Origin: Terriglobia bacterium
Lineage (GTDB): Bacteria; Acidobacteriota; Terriglobia; Acidiferrales; UBA7541
Assembly (NCBI GenBank): GCA_020073485.1
Contig: JAIQFB010000008.1
Span: 1-64,000, forward strand
DNA length: 64,000 bases
Direction of reading: 5' to 3'
This document shows positions 20,925 to 44,888 of this stretch, piece after piece. How positions within the stretch are numbered: position 1 is the first letter of the stretch; each line of letters begins with the position of its first letter. The notes below the pieces were generated by a model. The model had not been told where the DNA came from. It saw only the letters and a list, made by a program, of their open reading frames with translations, and ran no database searches. The position numbers were made by a program, and so were the translations under genes.

Positions 20925-21437
20925 TCAGGATTTCCGCGGTTCGATTTTCGGACCTTTCACGGTTTCGGGGACGTGCCCGCGCCGGTAGATCATCACGGTT
21001 CGCTTGAATTCGATGACCACGGTGCCGTCTTGCTTAAATCCAGTGGTCTTGAAACGCACGATGCCCACGTTCGGTCTGGATTTCGATTCTCGCTTTTCGA
21101 GGACTTCGCTTTGCGAATAGAGGGTGTCGCCCTCGAAAAGCGGATTGGGGAGGCGCACCTCGTCCCAGCCCAGATTGGCCATCGCGTTCTGCGAGATGTC
21201 GGCGACGGACTGGCCTGTGACCACGGCAAGAGTGAATGTGGAATCGACCAGGGGCTTGCCGAATTCCGTTTTCGCCGCGTAGGCACTGTCAAAGTGGATG
21301 GGATTGGTGTTCATCGTGAGCAGAGTGAACCAGATATTGTCCGTGGCCAGGACCGTGCGGCCCAGAGAATGACGGTAGATATCCCCGACCACGAAATCCT
21401 CAAAGACCCGGCCTGCCCGGCCATCTATAATCGCCAT
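20925..21437 (-). CDS. MaoC-like hydratase (hot-dog fold)
   Basis: A 170-residue R-hydratase-like protein. The acidic/His active site is in NTNPIHFD near residues 44-51, matching the hydratase motif of MaoC and mesaconyl-CoA or itaconyl-CoA hydratase relatives. The ATG at 21437 is preferred (AAGG six bases upstream); a GTG two codons before is possible. It lies 30 bp downstream of the CoA-transferase gene and 14 bp upstream of the carrier gene. It most likely hydrates the enoyl-CoA made by the acyl-CoA dehydrogenase of the same operon. Confidence 0.92.
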   Translation of the reverse strand: MAIIDGRAGRVFEDFVVGDIYRHSLGRTVLATDNIWFTLLTMNTNPIHFDSAYAAKTEFGKPLVDSTFTLAVVTGQSVADISQNAMANLGWDEVRLPNPLFEGDTLYSQSEVLEKRESKSRPNVGIVRFKTTGFKQDGTVVIEFKRTVMIYRRGHVPETVKGPKIEPRKS

Positions 21438-21467
21438 GGTCACCTTCCAGAGATTTATTTCTCGAAA

Positions 21468-22643
21468 TCAAATCACGCCATCACGGCGCCAACTTGCAAT
21501 CGTTTCCGCATTAAAACCCAACTCGCCGAGGATCGCGCCGGTGTGCTGTCCCAGCGCGGGAATTTCGTTCATGGCGACGTCCACATTTTCCATAGTGACC
21601 GGCGGAAGAAGGGCCGGAAGACGGCCCACGGGTGAATCCACCTCGCTCCATCGTTTTCTGGCCTCGAGTTGCGGATGAACCACGAATTCCTGCATGGTGT
21701 TCATCCGCGCGTTCGCGATTTGCGCCGTTTCCAACCGCGCGATGATTTCGGCCGTGGTCAGTTTCCCAAACACTTCATGCATTACTTGATCGAGCTGCGG
21801 ACGATTCTGGACCCTCTTGGCGTTGGAGTCAAAGCGAGGATCCGAGGAAAGTTGGGGGAGCTGCAATACCACTTCACAAAATCTTTTCCATTCGCGCTCG
21901 TTTTGCAAGCCGAGGTACACCGCTTTATGGTCTCCGCTTTGCACCGGGCCGTAGGGAGCGATAGTGGCGTGGCTTGCTCCGGACCTCGGGGGAGCCGATC
22001 CTCCTGAGGTGTAGTACGCGGCGTAACTCATCCATTCGGCGAGCGAATCGAAAAGAGAAGTCTCCAGAGCGACGCCCTCGCCGGTTCGCGCGCGGACCAG
22101 CAAAGCCGTGAGAATTCCGGAATAGGCATACATCCCGCAGGAAATATCGGCGATGGAGATGCCGACTTTCGAGGGCGATTGTTCTGTGCCGGTGATGGAA
22201 ATCAATCCTACCTCTGCCTGGATCAGCAAGTCGTACGCTTTTTTGTCGCGGTACGGGCCGGAAGATCCGTATCCGGAAAGATCGCAGACGATGAGGCGCG
22301 GATATTTCTTGCGGAGTTCCGCGGTGGCGAATCCGAGGCGCTCGGTTGCTCCGGGCGCCAAATTCTGGATAAATACATCCGCCTTGGCAAGCAAGCGATC
22401 CAGAACCAGCTTGGCCTCGTCCCGCTTGAGATCCAGCGTGAGAGATTCCTTGGAACGATTGAGCCATACAAAGTGGCTAGACATTCCGCGGACGGTGGCG
22501 TCATAGCCGCGCGCAAAATCTCCAACCTCGGGTCGCTCAACTTTGATGACACGCGCACCCAAGTCCGCCAATTGCCGCGTCGCAAACGGCGCGGCAACGG
22601 CCTGCTCCAAGGACACCACCGTGATTCCCTCGAGCGGCAACAT
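21468..22643 (-). CDS. Class III (CaiB/BaiF) CoA-transferase
   Basis: A 391-residue family III CoA-transferase, which moves CoA to an organic acid through an aspartyl intermediate. The N-terminus (LPLEGITVVSLEQ) and ADLGARVIKVERP are characteristic, and the likely nucleophile is the Asp of AYDLLIQAEVG. Its ATG shares one base with the stop of the acyl-CoA dehydrogenase gene (TGATG), which implies translational coupling and fixes the start. The acceptor acid is probably the substrate imported by the OFA carrier; the donor could be succinyl-CoA or a product CoA ester. Confidence 0.95.
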   Translation of the reverse strand: MLPLEGITVVSLEQAVAAPFATRQLADLGARVIKVERPEVGDFARGYDATVRGMSSHFVWLNRSKESLTLDLKRDEAKLVLDRLLAKADVFIQNLAPGATERLGFATAELRKKYPRLIVCDLSGYGSSGPYRDKKAYDLLIQAEVGLISITGTEQSPSKVGISIADISCGMYAYSGILTALLVRARTGEGVALETSLFDSLAEWMSYAAYYTSGGSAPPRSGASHATIAPYGPVQSGDHKAVYLGLQNEREWKRFCEVVLQLPQLSSDPRFDSNAKRVQNRPQLDQVMHEVFGKLTTAEIIARLETAQIANARMNTMQEFVVHPQLEARKRWSEVDSPVGRLPALLPPVTMENVDVAMNEIPALGQHTGAILGELGFNAETIASWRRDGVI

Positions 22644-23809
22644 CAGTAGGACCTGGGCAGGCCCAGAACATGCTCGGCCAGATAGCTCAGAATAAGGTTG
22701 GTCGAAATGGGCGCCACTTGATATAGGCGGGTTTCGCGGAATTTTCGTTCGATATCGTACTCCTCGGCAAAGCCGAATCCGCCGTGCGTTTGCACCGCGA
22801 CATTGGCCAGTTCCCAGGAAACGTCGGCCGAGAGAAGCTTGGAAATATTCGCTTCCGTGCCGCACGGTTTGCCATTGTCGAACAGGCTGGCCGCGCGCCT
22901 GACCATCAGCCGCGCCGCCTCCAGATTGGCGTAGGCGCGGGCGATTGGAAATTGAATCCCCTGATTTTTGCCGATTGGCCGGGCGAAAACCACTCGCTCA
23001 TTGGCGTAACGGCAGGTGCGTTCCAGGAACCAGTGCGCGTCGCCCAAACATTCCGAAGCTATCAGGATTCGCTCGGCATTCAAGCTGTCCAGCAGGTAGC
23101 GGAATCCCTGGCCTTCTTCGCCCACCAGATTGTCCACGGGAACTTCCAGGTTATCGAAAAACAGTTCGGTGGTTGCGTGATTCATCATCGTGCGGATGGG
23201 CCGAATCTTGAGTCCATGACCCACGGCCTGGCGAAGATCGACCAGGATGGTGGAGAGTCCTTCGGTTCGCTTCTTCACCTGGTCGACGGGCGTGGTGCGG
23301 GCGATCAGGAGCATCAGATCGGAATGTTCGGCCCGCGAGATCCAAATTTTTTGGCCATTGATCACATAGCGGTCTCCCTTTCGGACGGCCATGGTTTTTA
23401 GCTGCGTGGTATCGGTGCCCGTATTGGGTTCGGTGACGCCGAATGCCTGCAGGCGCACAGATCCATCGGCGACCTTGGGTAAGTATTTCCGCTTCTGCTC
23501 TTCCGAACCATGCCGCAGGAGCGTGCCCATGATGTACATCTGGGCGTGGCATGCGGCGGCGTTTCCTCCGCAATGATGAATTTCTTCCAGGATGATGGAG
23601 GCCTCGGTGACGCCGAGTCCCGCGCCGCCGTATTCCTCGGGAATCAAGGTGGCCATATATCCGGCCTGCGTGAGGGCCTGAACAAAGGCTTCGGGGTAAG
23701 CGCGCTTTTCGTCAAGTTCCCGCCAGTACGTGTCCGGAAAATCCCGGCACAATTCGCGGATGGAAGATTTCAGGTCCTGGTGCGTTTCATCCTGTGAACT
23801 GTTCGCCAT
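22643..23809 (-). CDS. Acyl-CoA dehydrogenase family flavoprotein lacking the usual C-terminal Glu
   Basis: A 388-residue ACAD, first gene of the operon. Seen: the N-terminal helical domain, the middle flavin-contact segment FGVTEPNTGTD, WISRAEHS, and the C-terminal THGGFGFAEEYDIER. In medium- and short-chain enzymes this last motif is followed by a loop with the catalytic Glu (E-G-T). Here the loop reads LYQVAPISTNL, with no Glu. The base must therefore come from elsewhere (as in isovaleryl or long-chain enzymes), or the enzyme does different chemistry, such as a desulfinase-like reaction. The operon predicts an acyl-CoA derived from a small organic acid. The start has only a weak ribosome binding site. 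Confidence 0.93.
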   Translation of the reverse strand: MANSSQDETHQDLKSSIRELCRDFPDTYWRELDEKRAYPEAFVQALTQAGYMATLIPEEYGGAGLGVTEASIILEEIHHCGGNAAACHAQMYIMGTLLRHGSEEQKRKYLPKVADGSVRLQAFGVTEPNTGTDTTQLKTMAVRKGDRYVINGQKIWISRAEHSDLMLLIARTTPVDQVKKRTEGLSTILVDLRQAVGHGLKIRPIRTMMNHATTELFFDNLEVPVDNLVGEEGQGFRYLLDSLNAERILIASECLGDAHWFLERTCRYANERVVFARPIGKNQGIQFPIARAYANLEAARLMVRRAASLFDNGKPCGTEANISKLLSADVSWELANVAVQTHGGFGFAEEYDIERKFRETRLYQVAPISTNLILSYLAEHVLGLPRSY

Positions 23810-23956
23810 ATTCAACGGAAGACCTCGCCCTGTGCCGGGCAGTAGCGTAAACTTTGGCTTATAAAATGCGCAATCGCCTGCAGGCACGAAATCAAGAATG
23901 CAAGAATCCAGATGCGCGAATGCAAAGTATCTTAACCAAAATCGTCTCTTAGCGGG

Positions 23957-25375
23957 ATGGAGAATTCATTGGAGCCCATAACTCGAACGGTGGTCAAGTT
24001 TTCACACGAGCTCAGCCAAAGGGACCTCAGCAGCGAAGTCATGGAGCAAAGCAAGCGCTTGCTTCTGGATTATCTGGGAGTCGCGATTAGCGGTTCGCAA
24101 ACCGATTCCTCACGCGCGGTTTACCGGATGCTGGCGCGCACGCCGTCGCCGGGCCTTTGTTCCGTTCTTGGCACAGCGTTGCAGACATCGGCGGAATATG
24201 CGGCGCTGGCGAACGGAACTTCGGCGCACAGCGTGGAACTGGACGATACCCATCAAGCGGGTTCCATCCATCTGGGCGTGGTGATGTTTTCGACGGCGAT
24301 CGCATTGAGCGAATTGCAGCCGGATATCGACAGCAATCGATTTGTCGCCGCAGTGGTTGCGGGATATGAAATCGCCGCGCGACTGGGAACCGCGCTGCAG
24401 CCGAAATATCATTATGAACTGGGGTTTCATCCTACCGCTACGTGCGGCGTATTCGGTGCTGCCGTCACCGCGGCGAAGCTTATGCAATTGGACGAAGAGC
24501 AGATGCTCTCCGCCATGGGAATTGCCGGCAGTATGGCTGCCGGGTCGCTGGAGTTTCTGGCGGATGGCGCGTGGACAAAAAGACTTCATCCGGGACTTGC
24601 CGCGCAAAACGGAATCCTGGCGGCGAAGCTTGCCGCCGCTGGATTTCGCGGGCCTGCGACGATTCTGGAAGGCCGTGACGGATTTCTATCCGCGTACTCG
24701 CGGAAGTCAAGACCGGAAATTGTGACTCAGGATTTGGGAAAAACGTTTGAGATATTGAAGACCGCGATCAAGCCACACGCGTGCTGCCGGTATATGCAGG
24801 CTCCCATCGATGGGTTGATTGAGCTGGCCAGAACGCAGGACATTCGTCCCGAGCAGATCGCACGCGTCGAAGTCGCCGTCCTGGAAGCCGGCTGGCCGCT
24901 GATCTGCGAGCCTCGAGAGCGGAAGTATTCGCCGTCCAACACCGTGGACGCGCAATTTTCCATGCCCTTTGGCGCCGCGATCGCTCTGACCTTCCGGGCC
25001 GCGGGCCTCGATCAATTCACCGAAGCCAACTTCAATTCACCAGGAATTCAAAGCCTGATGGGCAGAGTGGTTATGACGAGAGATATCCGCATCGAAAAGA
25101 ATTTTCCGGCGGAGTGGGCTTCCAATGTTCAAGTCCACCTGACAAATGGCAAGCAGTTTGAAAAGTATGTCCGTTTTCCGAAAGGCGATCCGGAGAACCC
25201 GCTGACCTGGGAGGAATTGTCAGCCAAATTCGAATCCCTCGCTCTGCGTGTTCTCCCTCGAGACCGCTGTGAGCAAATAACCAATATGGTGGGCGAGATT
25301 CAGCCCTCGTCTGATCTTCGGAAGATTTGGAAACTGGCGGCTCTCGCCACACCGGCGGCCAGCGGATCGAATTGA
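23957..25375 (+). CDS. MmgE/PrpD family protein
   Basis: A 472-residue protein of the family that includes 2-methylcitrate dehydratase and cis-aconitate decarboxylase. Family signatures are LDYLGVAISG, the ELDDTHQAGSIHLG segment and the GFHPTATCGVFGAA segment, all in the usual order and spacing; the length is normal. It is divergent from the acyl-CoA operon across 147 bp and convergent with the cytochrome c gene at only 8 bp. Co-occurrence with CoA-transferase, MaoC and ACAD genes suggests one catabolic module for a branched or unsaturated di- or tricarboxylate, for example itaconate- or aconitate-like acids; this is inference from context. Confidence 0.93.
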   Translation: MENSLEPITRTVVKFSHELSQRDLSSEVMEQSKRLLLDYLGVAISGSQTDSSRAVYRMLARTPSPGLCSVLGTALQTSAEYAALANGTSAHSVELDDTHQAGSIHLGVVMFSTAIALSELQPDIDSNRFVAAVVAGYEIAARLGTALQPKYHYELGFHPTATCGVFGAAVTAAKLMQLDEEQMLSAMGIAGSMAAGSLEFLADGAWTKRLHPGLAAQNGILAAKLAAAGFRGPATILEGRDGFLSAYSRKSRPEIVTQDLGKTFEILKTAIKPHACCRYMQAPIDGLIELARTQDIRPEQIARVEVAVLEAGWPLICEPRERKYSPSNTVDAQFSMPFGAAIALTFRAAGLDQFTEANFNSPGIQSLMGRVVMTRDIRIEKNFPAEWASNVQVHLTNGKQFEKYVRFPKGDPENPLTWEELSAKFESLALRVLPRDRCEQITNMVGEIQPSSDLRKIWKLAALATPAASGSN

Positions 25376-25383
25376 GATATTTC

Positions 25384-25779
25384 CTATCTCAAAATCGAGG
25401 GCATCGTTGCCGGGGGATGCGCCCGCGCTTGCAGGAACGCGTAGATGTCGGCCAATTCCTGGTCCGTCACAACCTTGGCGGTGTACGGCGGCATCTCGCG
25501 CGTGGGCTTGCGTACGTAGGAAATGAAATAGTCGAACGGGACAGGATTCGGGCCGATGCGGGGGCCAGCCATCGTCGTGCCCTGGCCTTCGCGGCCGTGG
25601 CATTCGTAGCAACCGTATTTATTGAAAATCTTCTTTCCTGCCTCGACGTTCCCTGCCGGCGCAGCGTCTGACTTGGAAGACTGCGCGGAATTCTGGGAAT
25701 GCGCGCCGGTGGGATTGAAAATCAGCGCCACTGCCAGCGCAATGAGCCCCGTGGAACCGCAAACACGAATTGATTTCAT
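25384..25779 (-). CDS. Secreted monohaem cytochrome c paired with exported ThDP enzyme
   Basis: A 131-residue cytochrome c. AAGGAG lies five bases before the ATG. The signal peptide runs to about residue 28 (G-A-H-S). The haem site is C-Y-E-C-H; the Met ligand is probably in REMPPYT; a C-terminal helix D-I-Y-A-F-L-Q completes the fold. Only 9 bp separate it from the stop of the exported ThDP enzyme, so the two are co-transcribed and probably co-functional. The cytochrome would accept electrons from the enzyme in the periplasm. Confidence 0.93.
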   Translation of the reverse strand: MKSIRVCGSTGLIALAVALIFNPTGAHSQNSAQSSKSDAAPAGNVEAGKKIFNKYGCYECHGREGQGTTMAGPRIGPNPVPFDYFISYVRKPTREMPPYTAKVVTDQELADIYAFLQARAHPPATMPSILR

Positions 25780-25788
25780 GCGCACTCC

Positions 25789-27735
25789 TTAGCGCGGTTG
25801 AGTTACGACGTCAAGCAGAGCCGGCTCGCCACGTTTGACCACGGCGATCGCGCGCTTTAGCGCGGGGGCGAGATCCTTGGGATCGGTGATCGGGCCTTCG
25901 GCGTAGACGCCCATGCTCTGCGCGAGTTTCGAGAAATCCAGTGTGGGGTCCTCGAACGTGGTGCCGATTCCGGCGCGATCGATGCCGCGATTGTGCCGGT
26001 TGGCCATGCGCTGCACGTGCATGAGTTCTTCGTGGTAGGCGCGGTTGTTGTGCATGACGCTCAGGATCGGGATGCGGTGGTGCGCCGCCGTCCACAGAAC
26101 GGCCGGAGCAAACAGCAGGTCGCCATCGTCCTGAATGCTGACAGAAAACCGCCCGTACTTGCGGTTGGCGAGCGCGGCGCCCACCGAGGCGGGGGCGTTG
26201 TATCCAATCCCTCCGCCGCCCTGGGTGCCGATATATTGATAGTGCTTGTCAAAGGGCCACAGCCGCAGCGGCCACCAGCTGAAGTGGCGGAGGACGGAGA
26301 CCAGCGACCAGTCCTCGTCCTTGATCTGCGCCCACAACTCGGCGCACACGCGGGCCGTGCTGATAGGGCTCGCGTCCCAGGCGTACAACGCATCATTGCG
26401 CGCTTCGTCCAGCGCTTTCTGGTGCGCCGCCGCCAGTTTTGTTCCGCGATCCTGGAAGGCGCGCTTGCGATCAGCGGTGAGCTGACGTTTAACTTCTTCA
26501 ATCAGGTACGGCAAAGTCGCTTCCGCATCGGCGGCCATCGAAAGATCGACGCCGGTGTAGCGGTAAAAATCCTGGTAATTCGCCTTGATATTAAGATCGC
26601 CGGTGCTGATGCTGATAATTTTCGCGCCGCTCCTGGTAATCGGACGCGAAGTGCGGTGCACCTGATCGTGGTAGGAGTTCACAGCGCTCCAAAGATCGGG
26701 TGCCTCCAGGCCCACGACTAAGTCGGCGTTCGAGATCACGGCGGCGCGGCGGGAAGATTGATTGAGAGGATGCCGCGTCGGGAAATTCATCCGGCCGGCC
26801 TGGTCGATGACCGGCGCCTGCAGCAATTCGGCAAGCTCGACAAGGTGGTCGATTCCGGCCTGCGTGCGCGCGGCGCGGTCGGCGACGAACACTGGATTTT
26901 CGGCCTGCAGCAGCATGCGCGCGGCTTCGGCTACGGCGGCAGAATCGCCTGCCGGAGGAGTCGACAGCGCGAGTTTCGGTATGCTCTGGCTGGTTCCCTC
27001 CTGGATAGGATTTTCCTGGAGTTCGCTATCAGCGACCAGCAACACCGGGCCCATCGGCGGCGTCATGGCGATTTTGTAGGCGCGCACGGCGGACTCGGCA
27101 AAGTGCGGCAGCGAAATCGGCAGGTCGTCCCACTTGGTGTAGTCGCGGACCATGGCTGCGGCGTCCTGCACGCTGTGGGGCCATTCGCCGTAGGCGGAGT
27201 CGCGCTTGGTGGCGTCGATGACGTTGGCGACAATCATATAAATCGGGACGCGGTCGCAGTACGCGTTATAGATGGCCATGGAGGCGTGCTGCAATCCTAC
27301 GGTGCCATGGGCGAAGATGCACAGCGGCTTGCCTTCCACTTTCGCATAGCCGTGGCCCATGGCTACCGAGGACTCTTCGTGGCAGCAAGAGATTAATTCG
27401 GGATTTTTGTTGCCTCCGTAATTGATCACGGATTCATGAAGGGCGCGAAAACTGGAGCCCGCAACGCAGCACACGTAGTCAAAGCCGAGATTCTTCAAAA
27501 TGTCGACCATGAAGTCCGAGCCGGAGCGGTCCACGGTCAGGACTTCGGATTCCGGGGCCGGATCGGTTTCGATCAATGGGGGCAGGAGAGGCATCGCGGC
27601 GGTCGGCTCCGGCGCGGCGGGCTTGCCTGGCGTTGCGTGCAGGGCTTCGGCCGGGGCCGCCAACGTGGCGGCTCCGGCGGCCACGCTCTTCAGGAAATTC
27701 CGGCGGCCTACCGCCGGTTTTTTGGATTTGGTCAT
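25789..27735 (-). CDS. Tat-exported thiamine-diphosphate enzyme (acetolactate synthase/pyruvate oxidase fold)
   Basis: A 648-residue ThDP enzyme with all three domains. The N-terminus is a twin-arginine signal (GRRNFLKSVAAGAATL), unusual for this superfamily. The PYR domain has the cofactor-activating Glu in CCHEESSVAMGHGYA, a central DHS_like domain follows, and the PP domain has the metal motif D-D-G-D...N-N (IQDDGDLLF to MHNNRAYH). Pyruvate oxidase-like members pass electrons from a 2-oxo acid to FAD, then to quinone or another acceptor. Here the next gene is a cytochrome c 9 bp away and the upstream gene a secreted alpha/beta hydrolase 51 bp away. A periplasmic oxidative decarboxylase or C-C lyase is the likely role; substrate and flavin content are unknown. 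The ATG was chosen over a GTG five codons earlier because GGAG is properly spaced from it. Confidence 0.93.
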   Translation of the reverse strand: MTKSKKPAVGRRNFLKSVAAGAATLAAPAEALHATPGKPAAPEPTAAMPLLPPLIETDPAPESEVLTVDRSGSDFMVDILKNLGFDYVCCVAGSSFRALHESVINYGGNKNPELISCCHEESSVAMGHGYAKVEGKPLCIFAHGTVGLQHASMAIYNAYCDRVPIYMIVANVIDATKRDSAYGEWPHSVQDAAAMVRDYTKWDDLPISLPHFAESAVRAYKIAMTPPMGPVLLVADSELQENPIQEGTSQSIPKLALSTPPAGDSAAVAEAARMLLQAENPVFVADRAARTQAGIDHLVELAELLQAPVIDQAGRMNFPTRHPLNQSSRRAAVISNADLVVGLEAPDLWSAVNSYHDQVHRTSRPITRSGAKIISISTGDLNIKANYQDFYRYTGVDLSMAADAEATLPYLIEEVKRQLTADRKRAFQDRGTKLAAAHQKALDEARNDALYAWDASPISTARVCAELWAQIKDEDWSLVSVLRHFSWWPLRLWPFDKHYQYIGTQGGGGIGYNAPASVGAALANRKYGRFSVSIQDDGDLLFAPAVLWTAAHHRIPILSVMHNNRAYHEELMHVQRMANRHNRGIDRAGIGTTFEDPTLDFSKLAQSMGVYAEGPITDPKDLAPALKRAIAVVKRGEPALLDVVTQPR

Positions 27736-27786
27736 GGATTTAATCTCCACTCTGGTACTTGGCCTGAATCCGCCAATTTCGGAAAT

Positions 27787-29034
27787 CTACTGGCCACTGT
27801 GAAGGTGTTTGCCTTCGGATGCCGGTTCGAGCCGCGCCTGGATCCAGGGCATGACAATTTCCTCGCCGATTCTGGAATTCGGCCACTCCTGCGAGCGCCC
27901 CGTGTGTCCTCCGTCGGGATTCACCCAGGACCATTTTACCGCGCCGCCCGATTGCATTAGCAAGTAGAGATCGGAGATGGGCACCTGGCTGTCTTTCTCG
28001 CCATTCAGCACAAGCATCGGAGCGGAGGGCCAGCCAAGAAATCCCTGCGTCTTCAGCGACAGCCGCGGGCCGTAAGCGTAAAACTCGTCCAGCGACTTGA
28101 CGCCGTAGATCGCGGCGCGCGCCGCGAAAAGATCGAACAGGTATTCGGGCGTGCCGAGCGATTCCTTCTGCCATTCCGCCGTGTAGTAGTCATGCACCGG
28201 TCCGCCCTGCACGACCGCGCCGCGCAGGCGATCCTTCTCCGTGTAAGCGATGTTCGCCGCCCAGTGGCCGCCATAACTTACGCCCCAGGCGACAATGCGC
28301 TTGCTGTCCACCTCGGGCCGAGTGGCCAGATAATCAAGCACGCGCGAGAAGATGCGCTCCGAGCCAACGTCCGCCTTCACCGGCGACTCTCCGGTGCCGG
28401 GCATATCCACGGCCACCACGCCGATGCCGGCGCGGAATAGCGAATCGCGCCCTTGAATTTCATCTTCCTTGCGCGAATCGGTTCCGTTGATCATCAGGAC
28501 CATGGGCGCGGGGCGCACATCTTTCGGGAGACGAATATATCCGGCAATTTCCTTGCCTTCAAAGGGAATGCGCACAATTTCGATCGGAGGATCGAGGAAC
28601 CGTCCGTAATTGCGAAATGCGGCCAAGGCATTCTGATAGGCCTTTTGCTTGCCCGGCGAATTCGGGACGGGCCAGCGGGCGGCGGTGTAATAGCGGAAGG
28701 CCCAGAAGTAATCGTCGCGCGCCGCGGGTGTGTTTTTGTCGGCCTCTTCGGACTTGGCGCGTTTGTCGTAGCGCTCGGCGATGGCGCTCCAGGCAGCGGC
28801 CCATTCGTCACGGTCCAAGCTCTGGATGTTGGCGAGGGCTTCGCGGGCGTCATCGGACTTCAGGCCGCCCACCGGGCCCAGATTTTTGTCCACGCGGCGC
28901 TGGGTTTCCTGCTTGAGCTCTTCCCATGTGCGCGTGGGAGCCATTTGCGCGGCGGCGGCGACCGCGCCGGCGAGGGCGAATACGAGCAGCGTCGCGATTC
29001 GGCGCAAAGCGAACGAGCGATCGAATCGATTCAT
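27787..29034 (-). CDS. Secreted alpha/beta hydrolase with N-terminal helical domain
   Basis: A 415-residue alpha/beta hydrolase. AAGGAGG precedes the ATG, and a signal peptide (ATLLVFALAGAVAAAA) follows a basic n-region. An N-terminal helical domain of about 130 residues comes before the hydrolase core. The nucleophile is in WGVSYGG, the acid in NGEKDSQVP and the His in DGGHTG. This layout is that of FrsA/DUF1100 and 2,6-dihydroxypseudooxynicotine hydrolase-like enzymes, some of which cleave C-C bonds. It is the first gene of the operon with the exported ThDP enzyme and cytochrome c, so its product could be the oxo acid used next; that link is inference. Confidence 0.9.
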   Translation of the reverse strand: MNRFDRSFALRRIATLLVFALAGAVAAAAQMAPTRTWEELKQETQRRVDKNLGPVGGLKSDDAREALANIQSLDRDEWAAAWSAIAERYDKRAKSEEADKNTPAARDDYFWAFRYYTAARWPVPNSPGKQKAYQNALAAFRNYGRFLDPPIEIVRIPFEGKEIAGYIRLPKDVRPAPMVLMINGTDSRKEDEIQGRDSLFRAGIGVVAVDMPGTGESPVKADVGSERIFSRVLDYLATRPEVDSKRIVAWGVSYGGHWAANIAYTEKDRLRGAVVQGGPVHDYYTAEWQKESLGTPEYLFDLFAARAAIYGVKSLDEFYAYGPRLSLKTQGFLGWPSAPMLVLNGEKDSQVPISDLYLLMQSGGAVKWSWVNPDGGHTGRSQEWPNSRIGEEIVMPWIQARLEPASEGKHLHSGQ

Positions 29035-29180: not shown

Positions 29181-32100
29181 CTACCAGATAAGTTTCAAAC
29201 CCAGCTGGATCGAACGGTTCGAGCCCGTGCCGAGGACGGGGTTGGGAGATGCCTGGTCGGGAGTATTGCAGCCGCAGCCAAAGGTCGCGGGCGCCGAAGG
29301 ATCGTTGAAGCCGGCGCCTGCGGGCCCCGTGGGGTTGTAGAGATTTGGATGGTTGAGGACGTTAAAGAACTCCGCGCGAAATTGCGCGGTGAGGCGTTCC
29401 TTGAATTTCTCGTCCTTGACGATCGAGACGTCCCAGTTCTTGAATCCAGCGCCGCGGAAGATGCCACGGCCGGCGTTGCCAAGAGTGCCCAACGCCGGAG
29501 GAGTCAAGATTGTGCTGCCCTGCATATAGCACCCGCCGACGGTAGTCAGTGCGGCGGACGCATTCGGTCCAAAGGTCGCGGCGGCAGCCGTGCATGCTGC
29601 TGGAATGGCCGTTTTATTTCCGCACAGCGTGTCTCCGAAACACGGGAGTGCCTGGGGGCCGGATTTGAAGCCACTAGGCGGACCGGAGATGTTCCAGAAC
29701 TGTCCGTAGGAGTCGAGTTCCGTCACTTGACCTGTCCCGCTGAAGTCGTTGGTCAGGTCTTGCGCGGTCCACGGAGAACCACCCTGCAAGGTCAGCACGG
29801 AATTCAGCTGCCAGCCTTGCAGCAGTTGTCCCGGAGATTTCATTCCGGGGATGGCATAGGTGGTTGAGATGGTCACGCGATGGCGGATGTCGAAATCGCT
29901 GTTCCCGTACATGCTGGCCGGGTGCGCGCTATCCACGGGCAGGAAGTTGGAGCCGAAATTGGCGGAAGCGTTGTCGAGTGCGTGAGCGTAGGTGTAACCG
30001 ACCAGGAACGACAAGCCATGCGCCGGACGCTGGGTGAGGGTCACGTGCAAGCCGTTGTAGTTGGACTTGTCGATGTTGGACAAGCGGTCGATCTGGGCCA
30101 GGTATGGGAACTTACTGTAATACGGGCGGGCCTTTTGCTCCGCCGCCGACGAAGCAGCCGACGGGTCGCCAGCCGCAATCTGGCCCGCTGTGAACCCGGC
30201 ACCCAAGGCTGGTTGATTGATGTTCGCGAATCCGAGGAAACCAGTGCCGTGGTTACCGACATAGGTAATCTCCAGGGACATATCATTGGTAATGGCGCGT
30301 TGAATGCCTAAGGACCAGGTGCCCACATAAGGCGTTCGCATGTTGGGATCTAGCGCTTCCGTGTTGCAGGGGGCTGGATCCGTAACTGAAGTGGCAGAAC
30401 CAGCGGGAGTGAAGGTCAGACCATCGCCGCACTGCAATGCGAAAACGCTGGCCGGGAAAATTGTGCCGCAGGCTGTGGTTCCGCCGCTCACGCAGGCCGG
30501 GGTTTGCGCTTGCCAGCCCGCTGAGAGCGCGGTGCCGGAAACACTTTCCGTGATGACTCCCATGTTTCCCGGGCCGTTCCTGATCGTCTGAGTGCTGGTA
30601 CCATTTACGCAAGGGTTCGTTGAGCAGAAATACTCGGTGGCGCCAGTTGGCACCTGGTTCAGGCCAAGCTGGTTGCCCACGGCGATAAACACGCTATAGG
30701 GCAACTGCTCGTACATGATGCTGCCGCCCCCGCGAACAACGGTTTTTCCGTTGCCCTGGACGTCCCAGGCGAAGCCCACGCGCGGCGAAAAATTCTTGTG
30801 GTTGCCGTGAAAGGCGGAAGTCTCTCCGAAGCCGACCTGCACCAGCCCGGTCGGCGAATTGGGATCGAAGTTGCCGAGTTGGTTGTCGCGATCCTTCAAA
30901 ACGGTCTGGAGTTCGTAGCGAACTCCAAGGTTCACGGTGAGCCGCGGCGCAATATGCCAGTCGTCCTGCATGAAACCGGCGTAGCCCTGATTGCTCAGGT
31001 GGCGCTCCGGGTTGCCAACGAGAATGGCGGACAGAGTTCCACTGTTACGAACGGTGCCGGTAAGAAATTGCTGCAAGGTCTTGAACCGGATGCTGCCCTT
31101 GCCGTTGGCGGTGACGAACACGTCGGCGGTATTGCTGATGATTTCCCCACCGAACTTGAAGGCGTGTTTGCCGCGCAAGACCGAGACGTGATCGATGATG
31201 TCCAGCGCGCCGGTTGGTCCCGGATGCTTGGGCCAGTTACCGCCGAGACGGAAATTCGTCGCCGAAAACGGATTGATACGGATGAAGGGGAAACCGAAAA
31301 ACCGAGGATCGGTTACGCCGGTATTGATGCCGTAGGAAAGCGGATTCACATTGGCGTCGACCGAATCATAGGTCTGGTGGAAGTAAGAGTAACCGGCTCG
31401 AGCTTCGTTGACGACGGTCGAATTCGGGGTCCAGGTCCACGCACCCGATCCCACTTGCACGCGTCCATAGAGATTTGACATCCAGGGAGAGTTGCTCGAC
31501 CCGGGAAGCCCGACCTGGTAGGCGCCGTCATTCCAGATGCCGCCGCCCCGGCCGTTGAAATACATGCCGGAAAGCGAATGCTTGTCGTTGATGTGGTAGT
31601 CGACCTTTGCCACGCCGTTCTTTTGTGAATTGGTGCTCACAAGGCCGAGAGGAAGGGGAGCGGTAGTCGTGTTCGTTGGAAACAGCGATTCGCTCGATCC
31701 GGGAGTGAAATTGGTGGGCTTCACGGAACAATCCGGATTGAGTCCGGCAAGCTGACGGCTAAGCGCGGTAACATTCGCGTACCCTACGGCATTGCAGGCA
31801 TCCACGAGGCTTTTAGATGGGTCAGCCCCCCCCGGAGTCGTGACCGTCAGAGGAGGCGTCAACAAAAGTGTGCTTCCCACATTGTAGTCCTGGCCTTCGT
31901 AATTGATGAAGTAGAACAGCTTATCCTTCTTAATCGCGCCGCCAAGGCTGGCGCCGTATTGCTCCAGGCCCACCGGCGCCTTGTTGCAGATCGACGGAGT
32001 GGCGACGCATGCGGTTTGACTTGCCGAGTTGAAAAAGTTGCGCGCGTCCAAAACGGTATCGCGGCCGAAAGCGAATGCGGTGCCGTGGATCGTGTTGGTG

Positions 32101-32891
32101 CCGGACTTGATGCCGGCGTTAACGATGGCGCCGGGCTTCCAGCCGAATTCCGCCTTGGGATTCTGCTCGGTATTGAATTCCTGAATCGCATCGATGGGCA
32201 AGGAAGTGGACGCATCGCCCGCGGGGATGACCGCGTTCAAAACGCTGGATCCAGTATAAGGATCGTCTTCGCGGACGCCGTCGAGCAAGTAGCCGATATC
32301 TTCCGGGCGCGTGCCGTTGGCGGAGCGCGCGGCGCTGCCGCCGCCCGGGTAAACCGTCATGCCGGGGCGCAGGGTGAGGAGGTTGATGTAGTTGCGGCCA
32401 TTCAAGGGCAGGTCATTGATGGTCTGGTTGCTGAGCGTGCCGCCCAGGGTCGCGTTGGTGGTTTCCACCAGCGGAGGAGCCTCGGTGATGGTGATCGTCT
32501 GGCTCACCTCGCCGGGCTGCAAGGACAAGTCCACGCGAATTTCTTTTCCCACCTGCAGCAGGACGTTCTGCTGTTCAACCTTCTTGAAGCCCTTGGCCTC
32601 GGCGCGAATGGTATAGGTGCCGGGAAGCAGGTTCGGCGCGTTATAAATGCCGGCATCGTCCGCAGTAAGGGTTCGAGTGAGGTTGCGTTGGGTATCGATG
32701 ACTGTGACGGTTGCGCCGGAGATGGCGCCGCCGGATTGATCCATGATCGTTCCCGTGATGCGCCCTTCATTTCCTTGAGAGAAGACGGGAATGCAAACTA
32801 GAAACACAGCCATCACAAGGCATATTGCGCGAACGACACGCAACATTTGTGCACACGACGACACAATTGACAGAGACTTTCTTGAAATCAT
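29181..32891 (-). CDS. TonB-dependent receptor, Oar-like
   Basis: A 1,236-residue outer-membrane receptor. After a signal peptide (cleavage near V-F-S-Q) comes a carboxypeptidase-regulatory-like Ig domain (GRITGTIMDQSGG to GFKKVEQQ), a plug containing LPLNGRNYINLL, and a long beta-barrel ending in Q-L-G-L-K-L-I-W; the final aromatic residue is the outer-membrane insertion signal. Oar-type receptors of acidobacteria import large or oligomeric ligands powered by TonB. The ATG at 32891 has a G-rich ribosome binding site; a later ATG at 32846 is possible. The longer frame starting at 33011 is excluded because it would begin at the inferred transcription start. It is flanked by its own terminator and a SnoaL-like gene; no enzyme partner indicates its ligand. 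Confidence 0.94.
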   Translation of the reverse strand: MISRKSLSIVSSCAQMLRVVRAICLVMAVFLVCIPVFSQGNEGRITGTIMDQSGGAISGATVTVIDTQRNLTRTLTADDAGIYNAPNLLPGTYTIRAEAKGFKKVEQQNVLLQVGKEIRVDLSLQPGEVSQTITITEAPPLVETTNATLGGTLSNQTINDLPLNGRNYINLLTLRPGMTVYPGGGSAARSANGTRPEDIGYLLDGVREDDPYTGSSVLNAVIPAGDASTSLPIDAIQEFNTEQNPKAEFGWKPGAIVNAGIKSGTNTIHGTAFAFGRDTVLDARNFFNSASQTACVATPSICNKAPVGLEQYGASLGGAIKKDKLFYFINYEGQDYNVGSTLLLTPPLTVTTPGGADPSKSLVDACNAVGYANVTALSRQLAGLNPDCSVKPTNFTPGSSESLFPTNTTTAPLPLGLVSTNSQKNGVAKVDYHINDKHSLSGMYFNGRGGGIWNDGAYQVGLPGSSNSPWMSNLYGRVQVGSGAWTWTPNSTVVNEARAGYSYFHQTYDSVDANVNPLSYGINTGVTDPRFFGFPFIRINPFSATNFRLGGNWPKHPGPTGALDIIDHVSVLRGKHAFKFGGEIISNTADVFVTANGKGSIRFKTLQQFLTGTVRNSGTLSAILVGNPERHLSNQGYAGFMQDDWHIAPRLTVNLGVRYELQTVLKDRDNQLGNFDPNSPTGLVQVGFGETSAFHGNHKNFSPRVGFAWDVQGNGKTVVRGGGSIMYEQLPYSVFIAVGNQLGLNQVPTGATEYFCSTNPCVNGTSTQTIRNGPGNMGVITESVSGTALSAGWQAQTPACVSGGTTACGTIFPASVFALQCGDGLTFTPAGSATSVTDPAPCNTEALDPNMRTPYVGTWSLGIQRAITNDMSLEITYVGNHGTGFLGFANINQPALGAGFTAGQIAAGDPSAASSAAEQKARPYYSKFPYLAQIDRLSNIDKSNYNGLHVTLTQRPAHGLSFLVGYTYAHALDNASANFGSNFLPVDSAHPASMYGNSDFDIRHRVTISTTYAIPGMKSPGQLLQGWQLNSVLTLQGGSPWTAQDLTNDFSGTGQVTELDSYGQFWNISGPPSGFKSGPQALPCFGDTLCGNKTAIPAACTAAAATFGPNASAALTTVGGCYMQGSTILTPPALGTLGNAGRGIFRGAGFKNWDVSIVKDEKFKERLTAQFRAEFFNVLNHPNLYNPTGPAGAGFNDPSAPATFGCGCNTPDQASPNPVLGTGSNRSIQLGLKLIW

Positions 32892-33940: not shown

Positions 33941-35551
33941 ATGAGCGGAATCACGAGGCGCGGGTTTGTCAAAGGCGCGGCGCTTGCCCCCCTTGCGCTA
34001 AGTTCGTTGAAGGCTGCCGCGCAAAATCCTTCCCCCTCGGACCGATTCGATATTGTCGTCGCCGGCGCCGGGCACAATAGCCTGGTCTCCGCGGCGTATC
34101 TGGCGAAAGCCGGGTTCCGCTGCGTGATCCTGGAGGGGCGCCCGACCGTGGGCGGCGGCGTCAAGTCGGCGCAATTTACCTTGCGCGGATTCATCCACGA
34201 CACCTGCTCGTCCGCGCACAACGGCATGCAGGAGAATCCGTTAATTAAGGATAAGGAAATCAATCTCGAAGATTACGGCCTCGAATATATTTTCCCCGAT
34301 CCGGTGTTCCACATGCCGTTTCTCGACGGCGCGTACATTACCCAGTGGCGCGACCCGGAGCGCACGCGCGCCGAATTCGCCAAGATTTCCAAAAAAGACG
34401 GCGACACCTACTGGCGCATGTGGAAGGAATCGGAAAATATCAAACCCACGGAAAAATACTGGCAGCGGCGCTTGGCCATGTCCCACTGGGAAATCATCCG
34501 CGACAGTTTTGAGGACAATCATTGCCGCGCCTTCATGCTGGCGTGCCCATGGTCGCAACAACCGGCGCAGTTCCCGATGACCGGGCGGATCGCCTACTCC
34601 CCTTTCAACCAGCAGCGCCACAGCCGGCCGCTGCCCAAGGGAGGATCAGGGAAACTTAGCGAGGCGCTGGCGCGATACATCGAGGCGCATGACGGCGTGA
34701 TCCATACGGGAAAGCCTGTGGCGCGATTGATAGTTGAAAACGGCAAGTGCGTGGGGGTCGAGTGCGCGGACGGAAGCACGTATCGCGCCGAGAAGGCCGT
34801 CCTCTCCACCATCCACATCAAGCATCTGGTGGATATGGCTCCGCACGATTTATGGGGCGCGGATTTCATCGACGGAGTGAACACGTGGCAGGCGGAATTC
34901 CAGATGATGAGCACCAATTACGCCACGACCGAACCCATCAAGTATCCCACCGCGGACGGCCCGCTTTCGCCGGTGCACTCGGAATTGCTCGGCAGCCCTG
35001 AGCGCGCGCTGCTCTTCGCGTACGACTACGCCATCGGCGCCGTCAATCTAGACGAGCCGCCGGTCCATATCATCCAAACTACCGTGGCCGATCCGACTCG
35101 GGCGCCCGAGGGGATGCACACCATCAAGGTCGTCGGATATCACCCCTATGATTTGAAGGAAGGACCGAAGCATTGGGACAACATCAAAGAAGAAGTTGCC
35201 GACGCTACGCTGAAATACATCCAGCGCTACTCGCCGAATCTGACGAACGACAAGATTCTGGAACGCGAGGTCATGAGTCCGCTCGATCTGGAGCGCATGA
35301 ACCCGCATAACTGGCACGGCAGTTGTCACGCCGGCGGATCCGGCCCGTCGCAATTGGGCGCCATGCGCCCGATGCCCGGCTGGGCCAATTACCGCATGCC
35401 AATTCCCGGCCTTTACCAGACTGGCGGGACGACGGCTCCTGGAGGCTCGGTGACAGGTATGCCGGGACGCAACGCCGCTGCGGTCATGCTCAAGGATCTG
35501 GGCACCAGCATTGAAGAAGTGGTCAGCAAGAAAGAAGCCAAGAAATCTTAG
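33941..35551 (+). CDS. Tat-exported FAD-dependent oxidoreductase (phytoene desaturase/PYROXD2-like)
   Basis: A 536-residue flavoprotein. GGAGG lies six bases before the ATG, and the N-terminus is a Tat signal (TRRGFVKGAALAPLALSS). The dinucleotide-binding motif is IVVAGAGHNSLVSAAYLAKAG, with the ribose-binding Glu in VILEGR. GGSGKLSEALARYIE and the C-terminal motif GLYQTGGTTAPGGSVTG match the CrtI/PYROXD2 branch, whose members desaturate or oxidise lipid-like or carotenoid-like molecules. Export through Tat fits a folded FAD enzyme. The five-haem cytochrome gene follows after 44 bp, so electrons probably go to it. The substrate is unknown. Confidence 0.93.
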   Translation: MSGITRRGFVKGAALAPLALSSLKAAAQNPSPSDRFDIVVAGAGHNSLVSAAYLAKAGFRCVILEGRPTVGGGVKSAQFTLRGFIHDTCSSAHNGMQENPLIKDKEINLEDYGLEYIFPDPVFHMPFLDGAYITQWRDPERTRAEFAKISKKDGDTYWRMWKESENIKPTEKYWQRRLAMSHWEIIRDSFEDNHCRAFMLACPWSQQPAQFPMTGRIAYSPFNQQRHSRPLPKGGSGKLSEALARYIEAHDGVIHTGKPVARLIVENGKCVGVECADGSTYRAEKAVLSTIHIKHLVDMAPHDLWGADFIDGVNTWQAEFQMMSTNYATTEPIKYPTADGPLSPVHSELLGSPERALLFAYDYAIGAVNLDEPPVHIIQTTVADPTRAPEGMHTIKVVGYHPYDLKEGPKHWDNIKEEVADATLKYIQRYSPNLTNDKILEREVMSPLDLERMNPHNWHGSCHAGGSGPSQLGAMRPMPGWANYRMPIPGLYQTGGTTAPGGSVTGMPGRNAAAVMLKDLGTSIEEVVSKKEAKKS

Positions 35552-35595
35552 ATCGAATTGTGCTGCGCGCATCCACCTGTCGAGGAGGCATATTC

Positions 35596-36165
35596 TTGTT
35601 GACGAGCGCGAGAGTTCCGATCGCAGCATGGGCCGCTGGTTTTCTTCTGGCCGTGGTGTTTCCGTTGTGGACTGCGAACGCCGGGCAATCCGCTATGCCG
35701 CCAGCCGCACAACTGGATGTCCCCGCAAATCCGGCCCCGCATCCGGGACCGGAGCAGCCGATCCCGTACAGCCACAAGACGCATCTGGCGCTGGGTCTTA
35801 CGTGCGCGGGCTGCCACACAAACCCCGCACCGGGGAAACTCATGACGTATCCGGCGACGGCGACATGCATGTCCTGCCATCATGTGATTGCCAAGGGGAA
35901 ACCTGCGATCAAGAAACTCGCCTCCAATGCAACCTCTGGCCAGCCTGTCCCCTGGGTGCGAGTGTACCAAGTGCTTCCCGGAGTGAACTGGACGCACCGC
36001 AAGCATCTCGACGCTGGAATCAAGTGTGAGACATGCCACGGACAGGTGTCCGAAATGCATGCAATGTCCGAAGCGACCAGCGTGACGACGATGGGCGTTT
36101 GCCTGCATTGCCATACGCTGCACAACGCACCCACGGTGTGCGCGACCTGTCACATGTGGCCTTAG
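35596..36165 (+). CDS. Five-haem cytochrome c (c3/c7-like)
   Basis: A 189-residue protein beginning at TTG, chosen because AGGAGG lies exactly seven bases upstream; a GTG at 35560 has no ribosome binding site. A signal-anchor or signal peptide is followed by five haem motifs: C-A-G-C-H (from residue 70), C-M-S-C-H, C-E-T-C-H, C-L-H-C-H and C-A-T-C-H. Extra histidines (SHKTH, THRKH) fit bis-His ligation as in c3/c7-type cytochromes. It lies between the exported FAD enzyme and a phosphatase-superfamily gene, 16 bp before the latter. It is the likely electron acceptor of the FAD enzyme. Confidence 0.92.
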   Translation: MLTSARVPIAAWAAGFLLAVVFPLWTANAGQSAMPPAAQLDVPANPAPHPGPEQPIPYSHKTHLALGLTCAGCHTNPAPGKLMTYPATATCMSCHHVIAKGKPAIKKLASNATSGQPVPWVRVYQVLPGVNWTHRKHLDAGIKCETCHGQVSEMHAMSEATSVTTMGVCLHCHTLHNAPTVCATCHMWP

Positions 36166-36181
36166 GCTGAAGGGATCTGGA

Positions 36182-38170
36182 ATGAAAGCGAAATTGGCAT
36201 TGTTTTTCGCGGCCCTTGTAGCCGGGTTCATGTGGCTGGCTGTTGTTTCGGGACGGGAGAACCCGGTACCTCTCCAACCTCGGAACATCGTGATCTTCGT
36301 TTCCGACGGTCTGCGAAGCGGCTCGGTCAATGCCGAAGAAGCGCCGACCTATTACTGGGTTCGCACGCACGGAGTCTACTTCGCCAACAGCCATTCTCTG
36401 TTTCCGACGTTTACGACGGCCAACGCGTCGGCGATTGCCACGGGACACTACCTGGGAGATACCGGGGACTTCAGCAATACCATTTATACGGGGCAACCTC
36501 AATTCTGGCGTGGCGCGTTCGGTAAGCCGCCGGGGACGTTTACTCCTTACCTGGAAAATGACGCCGCGTTGGCCGATCTGAACTCTCAGTTTCACGGAAA
36601 TTACTTGAATGAAGTGACGCTGCTCGGCGCGGCCCGCACGCATGGATTTAATACAGCCGCGATCGGCAAAATGGGGCCAGCGGCGATTCAGGACGTCAGT
36701 CAATTAAGTGAAACCGCCGGCCGGTTCACGATGCCCCAAACCGTGATTATCGACGATGGCACTGGCACCGCAGACGGGGCGCCTCTTACACCGGAAGTTG
36801 CCGCCGCGCTGGTCGGCGCAGGGCTTCCCACGACAACACCTGTACGCGATCAGCCAACGGGGAACAACGTCACCCCCGGCACGAAAGATTCAAACTACAA
36901 GCAGCAGTCATTTTTTGCGGACGCGGCCACGCGAGCGGTGCTGCCAATGTTCAAGAAGAGCGGGAAGCCGTTCGTGCTGCTTTACTGGTCGCGCGATCCG
37001 GACGGCACGCAGCACTTCCAGGGCGACAGCTTGAATACCCTCGTCCCCGGCATCAACGGTCCCACTTCCAAGGCCGGACTCAAGAACGCCGACAACAATC
37101 TGAAGCAAATCCTGGACTACATTCACGCTGATCCGCAGCTAGCGGCGAACACGGACATTTTTTTGACGGCCGATCACGGCTTCGCCACCATCAGCAAGCA
37201 CGATATCGACGCGGCAGGCCACGTCACCGCCAGCTACGCAGCCAAATGTATATATAAGGATAGCCACGGCCGTCAGGAGGTCAATACCGGCTTCCTGCCG
37301 CAGGGGTTTCTGGCCATCGATCTCGCCCACGCGTTGGGCCTTCCGCTATTTGATCCGAGCAGCCAGATCCCAGGCCCCGATGGCAAGAAAGTATTTGAGC
37401 CGGTGGACCCGACCGTTGCGCAGCAACTGCCTTCCGTCCGCCAGTACCCCGCCGCGGGCAACGGCCTGATAGGCGGTACGGGCCGAATCGCGGAGAAAAC
37501 CGACGCCAAAGTTGTGGTCGCCGCGAACGGCGGATCCGATTTGGTTTATCTCCCCTCACGCGACCCGGACCTGGCCCGCCAGATTGTGAAAGTCCTGAGC
37601 GAGCAGGATTATGTGGATGGGATCTTCGTCAACGACGAATATGGAAACGTGCGGGGGGCTTTGCCGACCAGCGCCATTCGGCTGGTGGGCTCGTCTTCGC
37701 TGCCGTCACCCACGATTGTGGTGACGTTCAAAACTTTTTCGACGGATCCCAGGAACCCTGTCATGACCGGAGTGCAAATCTCCGACTATAATTTGCAGCA
37801 AGGCCAGGGGATGCACGGAAGCTTCGGGCGCGCCAATACATTCAATTTCATGGCCGCCATCGGCCCGGACTTTAAGAAGCAGTTCGTGGACCCGGCGCCC
37901 ATCAGCAACGCGGACGTGGCACCGACGCTCGCGCACATTCTGGGATTGGAATTTCCCGGCAACGGCAAATTACTGGGGAGAGTGTTGCGGGAGGCTCTTG
38001 CGGGAGGGCCGTCACCGGTTTTGTTTAAACACCAAACAAAGATTTCCGCCAAATCGGGCAACGGCAAGACAACCATCCTGATGTACCAGCAGTCAGGCGA
38101 GCAAGTTTATTTTGACCAGGCATGTTTGAAGAGCACGACCGCGAATCATTCTCGCGCCACGTGCCCCTAA
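36182..38170 (+). CDS. Secreted alkaline phosphatase superfamily protein (phosphodiesterase type)
   Basis: A 662-residue protein with a signal peptide (MKAKLALFFAALVAGFMWL). It shows the superfamily metal-site order: Asp in IFVSDGLR, the Thr/Ser nucleophile region TFTTANASAIATG, DPDGTQHFQ, the T-A-D-H-G-F motif, and a late His in GMHGSFGR. This is the type I phosphodiesterase/nucleotide pyrophosphatase branch, which hydrolyses phosphate or sulfate esters. It is third in the operon after the FAD enzyme and pentahaem cytochrome. Why an ester hydrolase should accompany a redox pair is unclear; it may prepare the substrate of the FAD enzyme. Confidence 0.92.
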   Translation: MKAKLALFFAALVAGFMWLAVVSGRENPVPLQPRNIVIFVSDGLRSGSVNAEEAPTYYWVRTHGVYFANSHSLFPTFTTANASAIATGHYLGDTGDFSNTIYTGQPQFWRGAFGKPPGTFTPYLENDAALADLNSQFHGNYLNEVTLLGAARTHGFNTAAIGKMGPAAIQDVSQLSETAGRFTMPQTVIIDDGTGTADGAPLTPEVAAALVGAGLPTTTPVRDQPTGNNVTPGTKDSNYKQQSFFADAATRAVLPMFKKSGKPFVLLYWSRDPDGTQHFQGDSLNTLVPGINGPTSKAGLKNADNNLKQILDYIHADPQLAANTDIFLTADHGFATISKHDIDAAGHVTASYAAKCIYKDSHGRQEVNTGFLPQGFLAIDLAHALGLPLFDPSSQIPGPDGKKVFEPVDPTVAQQLPSVRQYPAAGNGLIGGTGRIAEKTDAKVVVAANGGSDLVYLPSRDPDLARQIVKVLSEQDYVDGIFVNDEYGNVRGALPTSAIRLVGSSSLPSPTIVVTFKTFSTDPRNPVMTGVQISDYNLQQGQGMHGSFGRANTFNFMAAIGPDFKKQFVDPAPISNADVAPTLAHILGLEFPGNGKLLGRVLREALAGGPSPVLFKHQTKISAKSGNGKTTILMYQQSGEQVYFDQACLKSTTANHSRATCP

Positions 38171-39381: not shown

Positions 39382-39477
39382 CAGAGCCTCCACAAATAAT
39401 TTTGACTCGTCTCGCAAAGGGCGCCGCGCCATTTGTCGAGCAGGGCGCTTCCCTTCACCCCAGGATGCCTGCGGGCG

Positions 39478-40467: not shown

Positions 40468-40790
40468 GGAAACCTCCAAGGAAAATTGGAATTGCAGGGT
40501 CCCGGATAGCCGAATCACATCGCCGGCGTTACGGCTGGGTTGATTCCCGCCTTTAATCTCTCTTTCCGCGCCATCGGAGGGCGGCATGGCTGCCGATGGA
40601 TGCGCCGCGAAACCGAGAGATGCGGCAAAGTTCGGAGCGTTCGCGATATTGAACTGCGGAGGCGCAACGCGCTCGGAGTTCGGTGTTTTGACTACCGAAC
40701 CCGTTGCGCGCTGCCGCGGCCGTCTTTAGCGTTACTGCTTCAGGCGATTTTAGAGATCGCTTCTCGCCTGCGTTTTTGCTTCTCACACCA
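40468..40790. other. Intergenic region with two hairpins
   Basis: A long interrupted dyad spans 40662-40709: GCGCAACG pairs with CGTTGCGC, and inside it GTTCGGT pairs with ACCGAAC around a loop containing TTTTGACT. A second hairpin, CAGGCGA/TCGCCTG, lies near 40740-40770. It is followed on the plus strand by five T residues, the wrong side for terminating the receptor gene. No protein is supported; the region could be a palindromic repeat or a small RNA. Confidence 0.45.
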
Positions 40791-44480: not shown

Positions 44481-44638
44481 AGCCCGATCCTCCGATTCCC
44501 TTTTAGGGATACATCTGGCTTGTGCGAAAACGACCGCCCGACCTACGGCCACCACGTTTCTGATGCGCTCACGAGACACTTCACCGCATTTCTGATTTGA
44601 TTATCCCAGACCAGCTCGGGAGAAAACGTGATTGTTGG

Positions 44639-44671
44639 GTGCTGTTTAGCACACACCTCTATTCGTGTCAA
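44639..44671 (-). promoter_or_regulatory. Promoter with overlapping palindromic operator, receptor A
   Basis: On the minus strand: -35 TTGACA (44666-44671), 17-bp spacer, -10-like TAAACA (44643-44648) preceded by TG. The -10 is embedded in a perfect dyad GTGCT-AAAC-AGCAC (44639-44652). The same layout occurs at 48728-48760 before receptor B, and identity extends about 25 bp into the transcribed leader. The layout suggests a repressor that blocks polymerase at the -10. Confidence 0.72.
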
Positions 44672-44839
44672 TGATTTAGTGTCTTATTAAGGTGAATATT
44701 GAAATTTTCAAGGTTTTGTAGAATAGAAATTTGGGGGGATCGCCGGCAGCCCGGGAGGATGAAAGCCAAGCGCGCCGCCGGGACGCAACGAAGATGAAGC
44801 CTGTCGATTGCAGGGAGTGAGGAAGGCCGATGCAATTGC

Positions 44840-44888
44840 AAAAAAATAGCGGCGCACGGCGGAAGAAAAACAACCGCCGTGCGCCGCT
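44840..44888 (-). terminator. Intrinsic terminator of receptor B gene
   Basis: A 15-bp perfect stem (44848-44862 with 44874-44888, core GGCGCACGGCGG) surrounds an 11-base loop. On the minus strand the stem is followed by A and then seven T residues. It lies 72 bases past the stop of the receptor gene. Confidence 0.93.

Follow-up and report, generated by a model that had tools for sequence, protein, structure and literature searches.

The window analysed here is a stretch of 64,000 nt from Terriglobia bacterium GCA_020073485.1 (contig JAIQFB010000008.1, positions 1-64,000, forward strand). Its minus strand carries three successive genes, which encode a secreted hydrolase, a thiamine diphosphate (ThDP)-dependent enzyme with a predicted twin-arginine (Tat) export signal, and a secreted cytochrome c. 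The cytochrome gene lies 9 bp downstream of the ThDP gene and the hydrolase gene 51 bp upstream of it, which is exactly the layout given in the initial annotation of the locus.

The ThDP enzyme (648 aa; 25789..27735) starts at an ATG, with an in-frame GTG at 27750. Its description as a complete three-domain enzyme is borne out, as the N, M and C domains of the TPP_enzyme type (PF02776, PF00205 and PF02775) occur in the right order, each above the Pfam gathering cut-off. An AlphaFold2 model (predicted local distance difference test score 85.5, predicted TM-score 0.85, low confidence over residues 1-62) best matched PDB entry 4q9d, followed by an ancestral acetolactate synthase, benzaldehyde lyase, glyoxylate carboligase and benzoylformate decarboxylases, at about 20% identity. 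The predicted active site includes Glu120 (27376..27378), the catalytic glutamate activating ThDP; His143 (27307..27309), aligned by HMMER with the active-site His70 of benzoylformate decarboxylase; Asp537 (26125..26127), the metal/diphosphate aspartate, in a DDGD variant of the classical GDG motif; and the metal/ThDP ligands Asn563-Asn564 (26044..26049). These residues are unchanged in 70 of 70 homologues, as is the run D537-G538-D539, while the first position of the motif varies (xDGD). Judged by sequence, the protein is a member of the ThDP decarboxylase superfamily with an intact predicted ThDP/Mg2+ site. It scored 152 bits on the benzoylformate decarboxylase profile NF005485 and so did not pass the cut-off of 493, and the stretch expected to hold the equivalent of His281 of that enzyme (residues 347-357, a region that aligns poorly) has no conserved histidine.

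The usual view of ThDP decarboxylases is that they are cytoplasmic enzymes. The N-terminus of the present enzyme, MTKSKKPAVGRRNFLKSVAAGAATLAAPAEALHA, is a textbook twin-arginine signal (about residues 1-38; 27622..27735), in which the Tat motif GRRNFLK at residues 10-16 is followed by a hydrophobic stretch running to ALHA. R11, R12, F14 and L15 are at least 90% conserved in two family alignments (A1 and A3), and the genome encodes one TatC. With the RRxFLK motif, the hydrophobic stretch, a cleavage site and TatC in the genome, the enzyme is a predicted Tat substrate. The motif was found within the first 45 residues in 89 of the 95 untruncated called family proteins, and of the six exceptions at least L056 and L094 are over-long gene calls with an RRxFL motif further in. 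Export of ThDP enzymes is not a single oddity, since a second Tat-ThDP family, about 30% identical to the first (L193, L194, L196, L200, L241, L243 and L256; alignment A4), occurs in 43 of 396 Acidobacteriota genomes at E<=1e-90, the weakest matches being more distant relatives. One member of this second family, L198, adjoins genes for gluconate 2-dehydrogenase subunit 3 and a GMC-like oxidoreductase.

The third gene (25384..25779) encodes a protein of 131 aa with a Sec-type signal and a single CxxCH (codons 25597-25611), which scores over the cut-off of PF13442/PF00034. In the alignment of its family C57, C60, H61, M96 and P97 are invariant, and Met96 (codon 25492-25494) is the probable axial ligand. 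From the CxxCH, the distal methionine and the Pfam profile, it is a predicted monohaem class I cytochrome c.

The relatives of the ThDP enzyme were collected from 61 related genomes and a GTDB contig set (the best-scoring 80 named loci; 514 candidate stretches encoding a relative). Pairing was counted over 103 distinct ThDP genes, with a home-made gene caller, as a family cytochrome within two genes downstream. Gene calling alone gave 83 of 103. Three more were added, two of them recovered by six-frame reading of cytochromes that gene calling had missed (L094 and L110) and one a pair that spans an N gap (L160). With four genes at contig ends, 86 of the 99 assessable members, from many genera, are paired with the cytochrome, mostly at a spacing below about 35 bp. 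The window genome itself encodes three further Tat-ThDP paralogues (61-64% identity), each adjoining its own cytochrome of the same family; at one of them (L009) the cytochrome gene is on the opposite strand and still adjacent. The ThDP-cytochrome pair is thus a real conserved module. A single conserved third partner was also considered and rejected, as the largest other neighbour cluster reaches just 14 of 102 loci. Six of six genomes sampled in the genus encode the ThDP family, as do 26 of 89 in the taxonomic family and, at E<=1e-60, 19 of 396 phylum-wide (a few only distant relatives); it also occurs in a few Pseudomonadota.

The history of the two genes also ties them together. On a ThDP tree rooted with other ThDP enzymes, the cytochrome is present in all deep lineages and its absences are scattered (about 13 changes, several of which are contig-end or gene-calling artefacts), which places it at the root, with scattered losses later. 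In the clade next to the window protein (G011, G023 and, by identity, G032) the monohaem cytochrome is lost where visible. In this sister clade L045 and L075, for which upstream sequence exists, carry a dihaem CytoC_RC-type cytochrome gene directly upstream instead, and this looks like a replacement of the partner. Over 70 ThDP-cytochrome pairs the distance matrices are correlated (Mantel r = 0.74, against at most 0.44 in 2000 permutations). When partners were swapped among the paralogues within each genome, which removes the effect of shared species history, the true pairing came first in six of six multi-copy genomes, in one of them among 720 arrangements; margins in single genomes are small and their direction is uniform. 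The cytochrome has co-evolved with its ThDP enzyme.

Plasmids of cultured proteobacteria carry relatives at 31-53% identity, of which 18 were compared. Both Tat-bearing ones, from Caballeronia zhejiangensis (L284) and Novosphingobium sp. KACC 22771 (L285), have a family cytochrome immediately downstream, as a dihaem form in the former and as two monohaem genes in the latter. The Caballeronia pair (8833-11396 of L284, NZ_CP084287.1; WP_244808613.1 and WP_244808614.1) lies beside a cluster for a Rieske dioxygenase, PdxA and an MHS transporter. None of the 16 non-Tat plasmid relatives has a family cytochrome beside it. Instead, nine of the 16 (L287-L291, L293 and L299-L301, which include near-identical strains and perhaps seven lineages) have an aldehyde dehydrogenase within two genes. 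Hence the same catalytic core is accompanied by a cytochrome c when exported and by an aldehyde dehydrogenase in the cytoplasm. The initial annotation had made its case depend on the Tat signal, the cytochrome neighbour and the metal aspartate and asparagines recurring in relatives; all three do so at the frequencies given above, and conservation, phylogeny, co-variation and the Tat/non-Tat contrast together give the coupling of the two proteins strong support.

These observations are best explained by a two-gene extracytoplasmic redox module, in which the exported ThDP enzyme oxidises 2-oxo acids and passes the electrons to its dedicated cytochrome c; the probability of this reading is put at roughly 0.6. 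The ThDP enzyme would fold with ThDP and Mg2+ in the cytoplasm before Tat export, and the cytochrome would leave through Sec and receive its haem c. Once in the periplasm, the ThDP enzyme would attack a 2-oxo acid (an aryl-glyoxylate or another organic 2-oxo acid, or possibly an aldehyde) and decarboxylate it to the enamine (Breslow) intermediate, which the cytochrome would oxidise in two one-electron steps. Hydrolysis of the acyl-ThDP would then release the carboxylic acid, so that the net reaction would be 2-oxo acid + H2O + 2 cyt c(ox) -> acid + CO2 + 2 cyt c(red), with the electrons going on to a terminal oxidase. Within this scheme we infer the oxidative decarboxylation, the direct ThDP-to-haem transfer, the absence of flavin and the substrate. 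Possibly the enzyme is instead an aldehyde oxidase passing electrons to the cytochrome. A bolder version is offered tentatively, at somewhat less than even odds: the ThDP enamine would directly reduce haem c on a separate, co-evolved extracytoplasmic protein without flavin, lipoamide or an iron-sulphur cluster, in a widespread multi-paralogue system that oxidises 2-oxo acids before uptake and is found in the cultured Caballeronia and Novosphingobium as well.

Several neighbourhoods suggest aromatic and organic acids as substrates. For example, L089/L097 lie among genes for protocatechuate 3,4-dioxygenase alpha and beta, PcaB, PcaDC and PcaR, and L126/L144 beside TcuA/TcuB (all over NCBIfam cut-offs). 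The Rieske dioxygenase, PdxA and MHS genes next to the Caballeronia pair point the same way. In the window the pair is next to genes for MmgE/PrpD, an acyl-CoA dehydrogenase, a class III CoA-transferase and an Ich/RipB-like hydratase (20925-25375), a set common to two relatives (L043 and L044); it resembles part of an itaconate-type degradation route. Aryl-glyoxylates are the favoured guess, and paralogues may differ. The four paralogues of the window genome each have their own cytochrome and differ in their neighbours, which suggests that a single chemistry is applied to several substrates.

Some points weigh against this interpretation. The cytochrome is missing from 13 of the 99 members, five of them related loci (L091, L095, L098, L099 and L103); the more distant second Tat-ThDP family adjoins cytochromes, of another type (LPxGxGK, Dehyd-heme_bind-like), in only a minority of its loci; the neighbourhoods vary too much to indicate one substrate; and the sequences come mostly from metagenome-assembled genomes, with the named loci being the best-scoring 80. 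Moreover, no natural ThDP-cytochrome fusion was found, the sole candidate (L160) having been rejected because its reading frame runs through a stretch of Ns. In the cytochrome-less clade of L091, L098, L099 and L103 the ThDP gene is preceded by CtaA/CtaB/Sco-like oxidase assembly genes and followed by one for an Abhydrolase_10 protein. In G002 a family ThDP gene (L081, 3448-5281) is split into two overlapping frames, by pseudogene formation or assembly error.

The alternative that survives best, though it is judged unlikely at about one chance in four, is a plain non-oxidative decarboxylase of the benzoylformate-decarboxylase type. It would free an aldehyde in the periplasm for a separate pyrroloquinoline quinone (PQQ) or molybdenum dehydrogenase, and the small cytochrome c would serve that dehydrogenase. 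The closest structures are indeed non-oxidative decarboxylases and the cytoplasmic relatives adjoin aldehyde dehydrogenases; in addition, PQQ dehydrogenases occur near nine of 102 loci and a molybdenum hydroxylase gene near L097. Nevertheless, the pair has no conserved adjoining dehydrogenase, whereas the cytochrome is conserved and co-varies with the ThDP enzyme itself.

Improbable by comparison is an exported ThDP oxidase of the pyruvate oxidase type, in which flavin adenine dinucleotide (FAD) held by the enzyme would relay electrons to the cytochrome. The superfamily is shared with pyruvate oxidase, acetolactate synthase and glyoxylate carboligase, and the structural matches include FAD-binding members. 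Against this, the stretch of the middle domain from HPL to the Rossmann strand shows an alignment gap and lacks about six residues relative to benzoylformate decarboxylase. In acetolactate synthase and pyruvate oxidase a GMxG segment contacts the flavin; it was not seen in the ThDP enzyme by alignment, and none of the FAD-type NCBIfam equivalogs reaches its cut-off. With the shorter loop and no flavin-contact segment, FAD, which the initial annotation had suggested, is unlikely.

Far less probable still is the three-gene extracytoplasmic pathway of the initial annotation, in which a 2-oxo acid produced by the hydrolase is cleaved by the ThDP enzyme, with the cytochrome taking up the electrons. 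The hydrolase (415 aa; 27787..29034) has a Sec-type signal, scores 101 bits on PF06500 against a cut-off of 22 and carries GxSxG as GVSYGG. Its nearest solved structures are Ayg1 ('yellowish-green 1'), FrsA and 2,6-dihydroxypseudooxynicotine C-C hydrolase (PDB 8qd7, 8qd1, 3mve and 2jbw), so that the proposed likeness to C-C hydrolases held up; this likeness, the tight spacing and the common strand speak for the pathway. However, the hydrolase is absent beside the 95%-identical ThDP orthologue (L043), and in G001-G004, G011 and G023 its orthologues (66-87% identity) and the ThDP genes are on different contigs. Among all family loci an FrsA-like fragment near a ThDP gene was found only in G008 (L050/L135), where it precedes one such gene by about 1.3 kb. 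As a conserved partner the hydrolase was therefore rejected: the coupling of ThDP enzyme and cytochrome stands, a role of the hydrolase as first step is not supported, and the three-gene pathway as a conserved system is largely refuted. The hydrolase is a neighbour and not a component of the module. Finally, chance or a general clustering of secreted redox genes, which are numerous in Acidobacteriota, has a negligible probability given the 86 pairs in 99, the co-variation, the pairing kept by each paralogue and the perfect match of Tat signal and cytochrome in the 18 plasmid relatives.

Upstream of the hydrolase lies a gene for a TonB-dependent/outer membrane barrel protein (29181..32813, minus strand; PF25183 and PF13620), a strain-specific neighbour that does not adjoin the orthologue in L043. 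The hydrolase orthologue of G002 adjoins DUF4440-like and Tat amine-oxidase-like genes, and such genes also flank the window region. Further along the window, a Tat-signal amine-oxidase-like flavoprotein, a cytochrome c3/c7-like protein with five CxxCH and a type I phosphodiesterase follow in succession (33941-38170). Two TonB/carboxypeptidase-regulatory barrel-like genes (40791-48551) are flanked by genes for five secreted proteins that resemble each other at the N-terminus (NHL-like by eye; 38227-40587 and 48969-52193), and a single open reading frame of 3103 aa (53025-62336) shows immunoglobulin/cadherin-like repeats by eye.

If the two-gene redox module is real as proposed, it would place the carbon-carbon chemistry of ThDP decarboxylases in the periplasm, yield respiratory electrons from 2-oxo acids with no need for nicotinamide adenine dinucleotide or for uptake, and extend the textbook mechanism by a ThDP-to-haem route. 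A family found across uncultured soil Acidobacteriota, whose cultured proteobacterial members can be worked on, would likewise gain a function open to testing. Nothing relevant on exported or cytochrome-linked ThDP enzymes was found in an open-access literature collection, most subscription journals lying outside its coverage, and the module is apparently undescribed so far.

Among known systems, the closest named profile to the ThDP enzyme is NCBIfam PRK08327, 'thiamine pyrophosphate-requiring protein'. The benzoylformate decarboxylase family (1BFD, 4q9d and the 4-hydroxybenzoylformate decarboxylase 6qsi/7orx) has in common with it the fold, the three domains, the catalytic glutamate, the His70 equivalent and the PGS loop. 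The ThDP enzyme differs in being about 20-23% identical and below the NCBIfam cut-off for that family, and in its Tat signal, cytochrome partner, DDGD in place of GDG and long helical segment near 421-451. Its closest cytoplasmic relatives are the non-Tat plasmid proteins of Cupriavidus, Acidovorax and Salipiger (31-40% identity), which have neither Tat signal nor cytochrome, and many of which adjoin genes for aldehyde dehydrogenase and a tripartite tricarboxylate transporter. The flavocytochrome c p-cresol methylhydroxylase is similar in its periplasmic aromatic oxidation and small cytochrome c partner, which is a weak match to the present one, but it is an FAD enzyme of an unrelated family. 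Pyruvate:ferredoxin oxidoreductase would share the one-electron oxidation of the ThDP enamine by a metal centre; it works in the cytoplasm with iron-sulphur clusters and coenzyme A and has another set of domains. Similarly, pyruvate oxidase (PoxB) would share the ThDP-dependent oxidative decarboxylation feeding the respiratory chain, if the proposed model is right. PoxB is cytoplasmic or peripheral and uses FAD and quinone, whereas the module described here is exported as predicted, has no evident flavin site and is paired with a cytochrome c.

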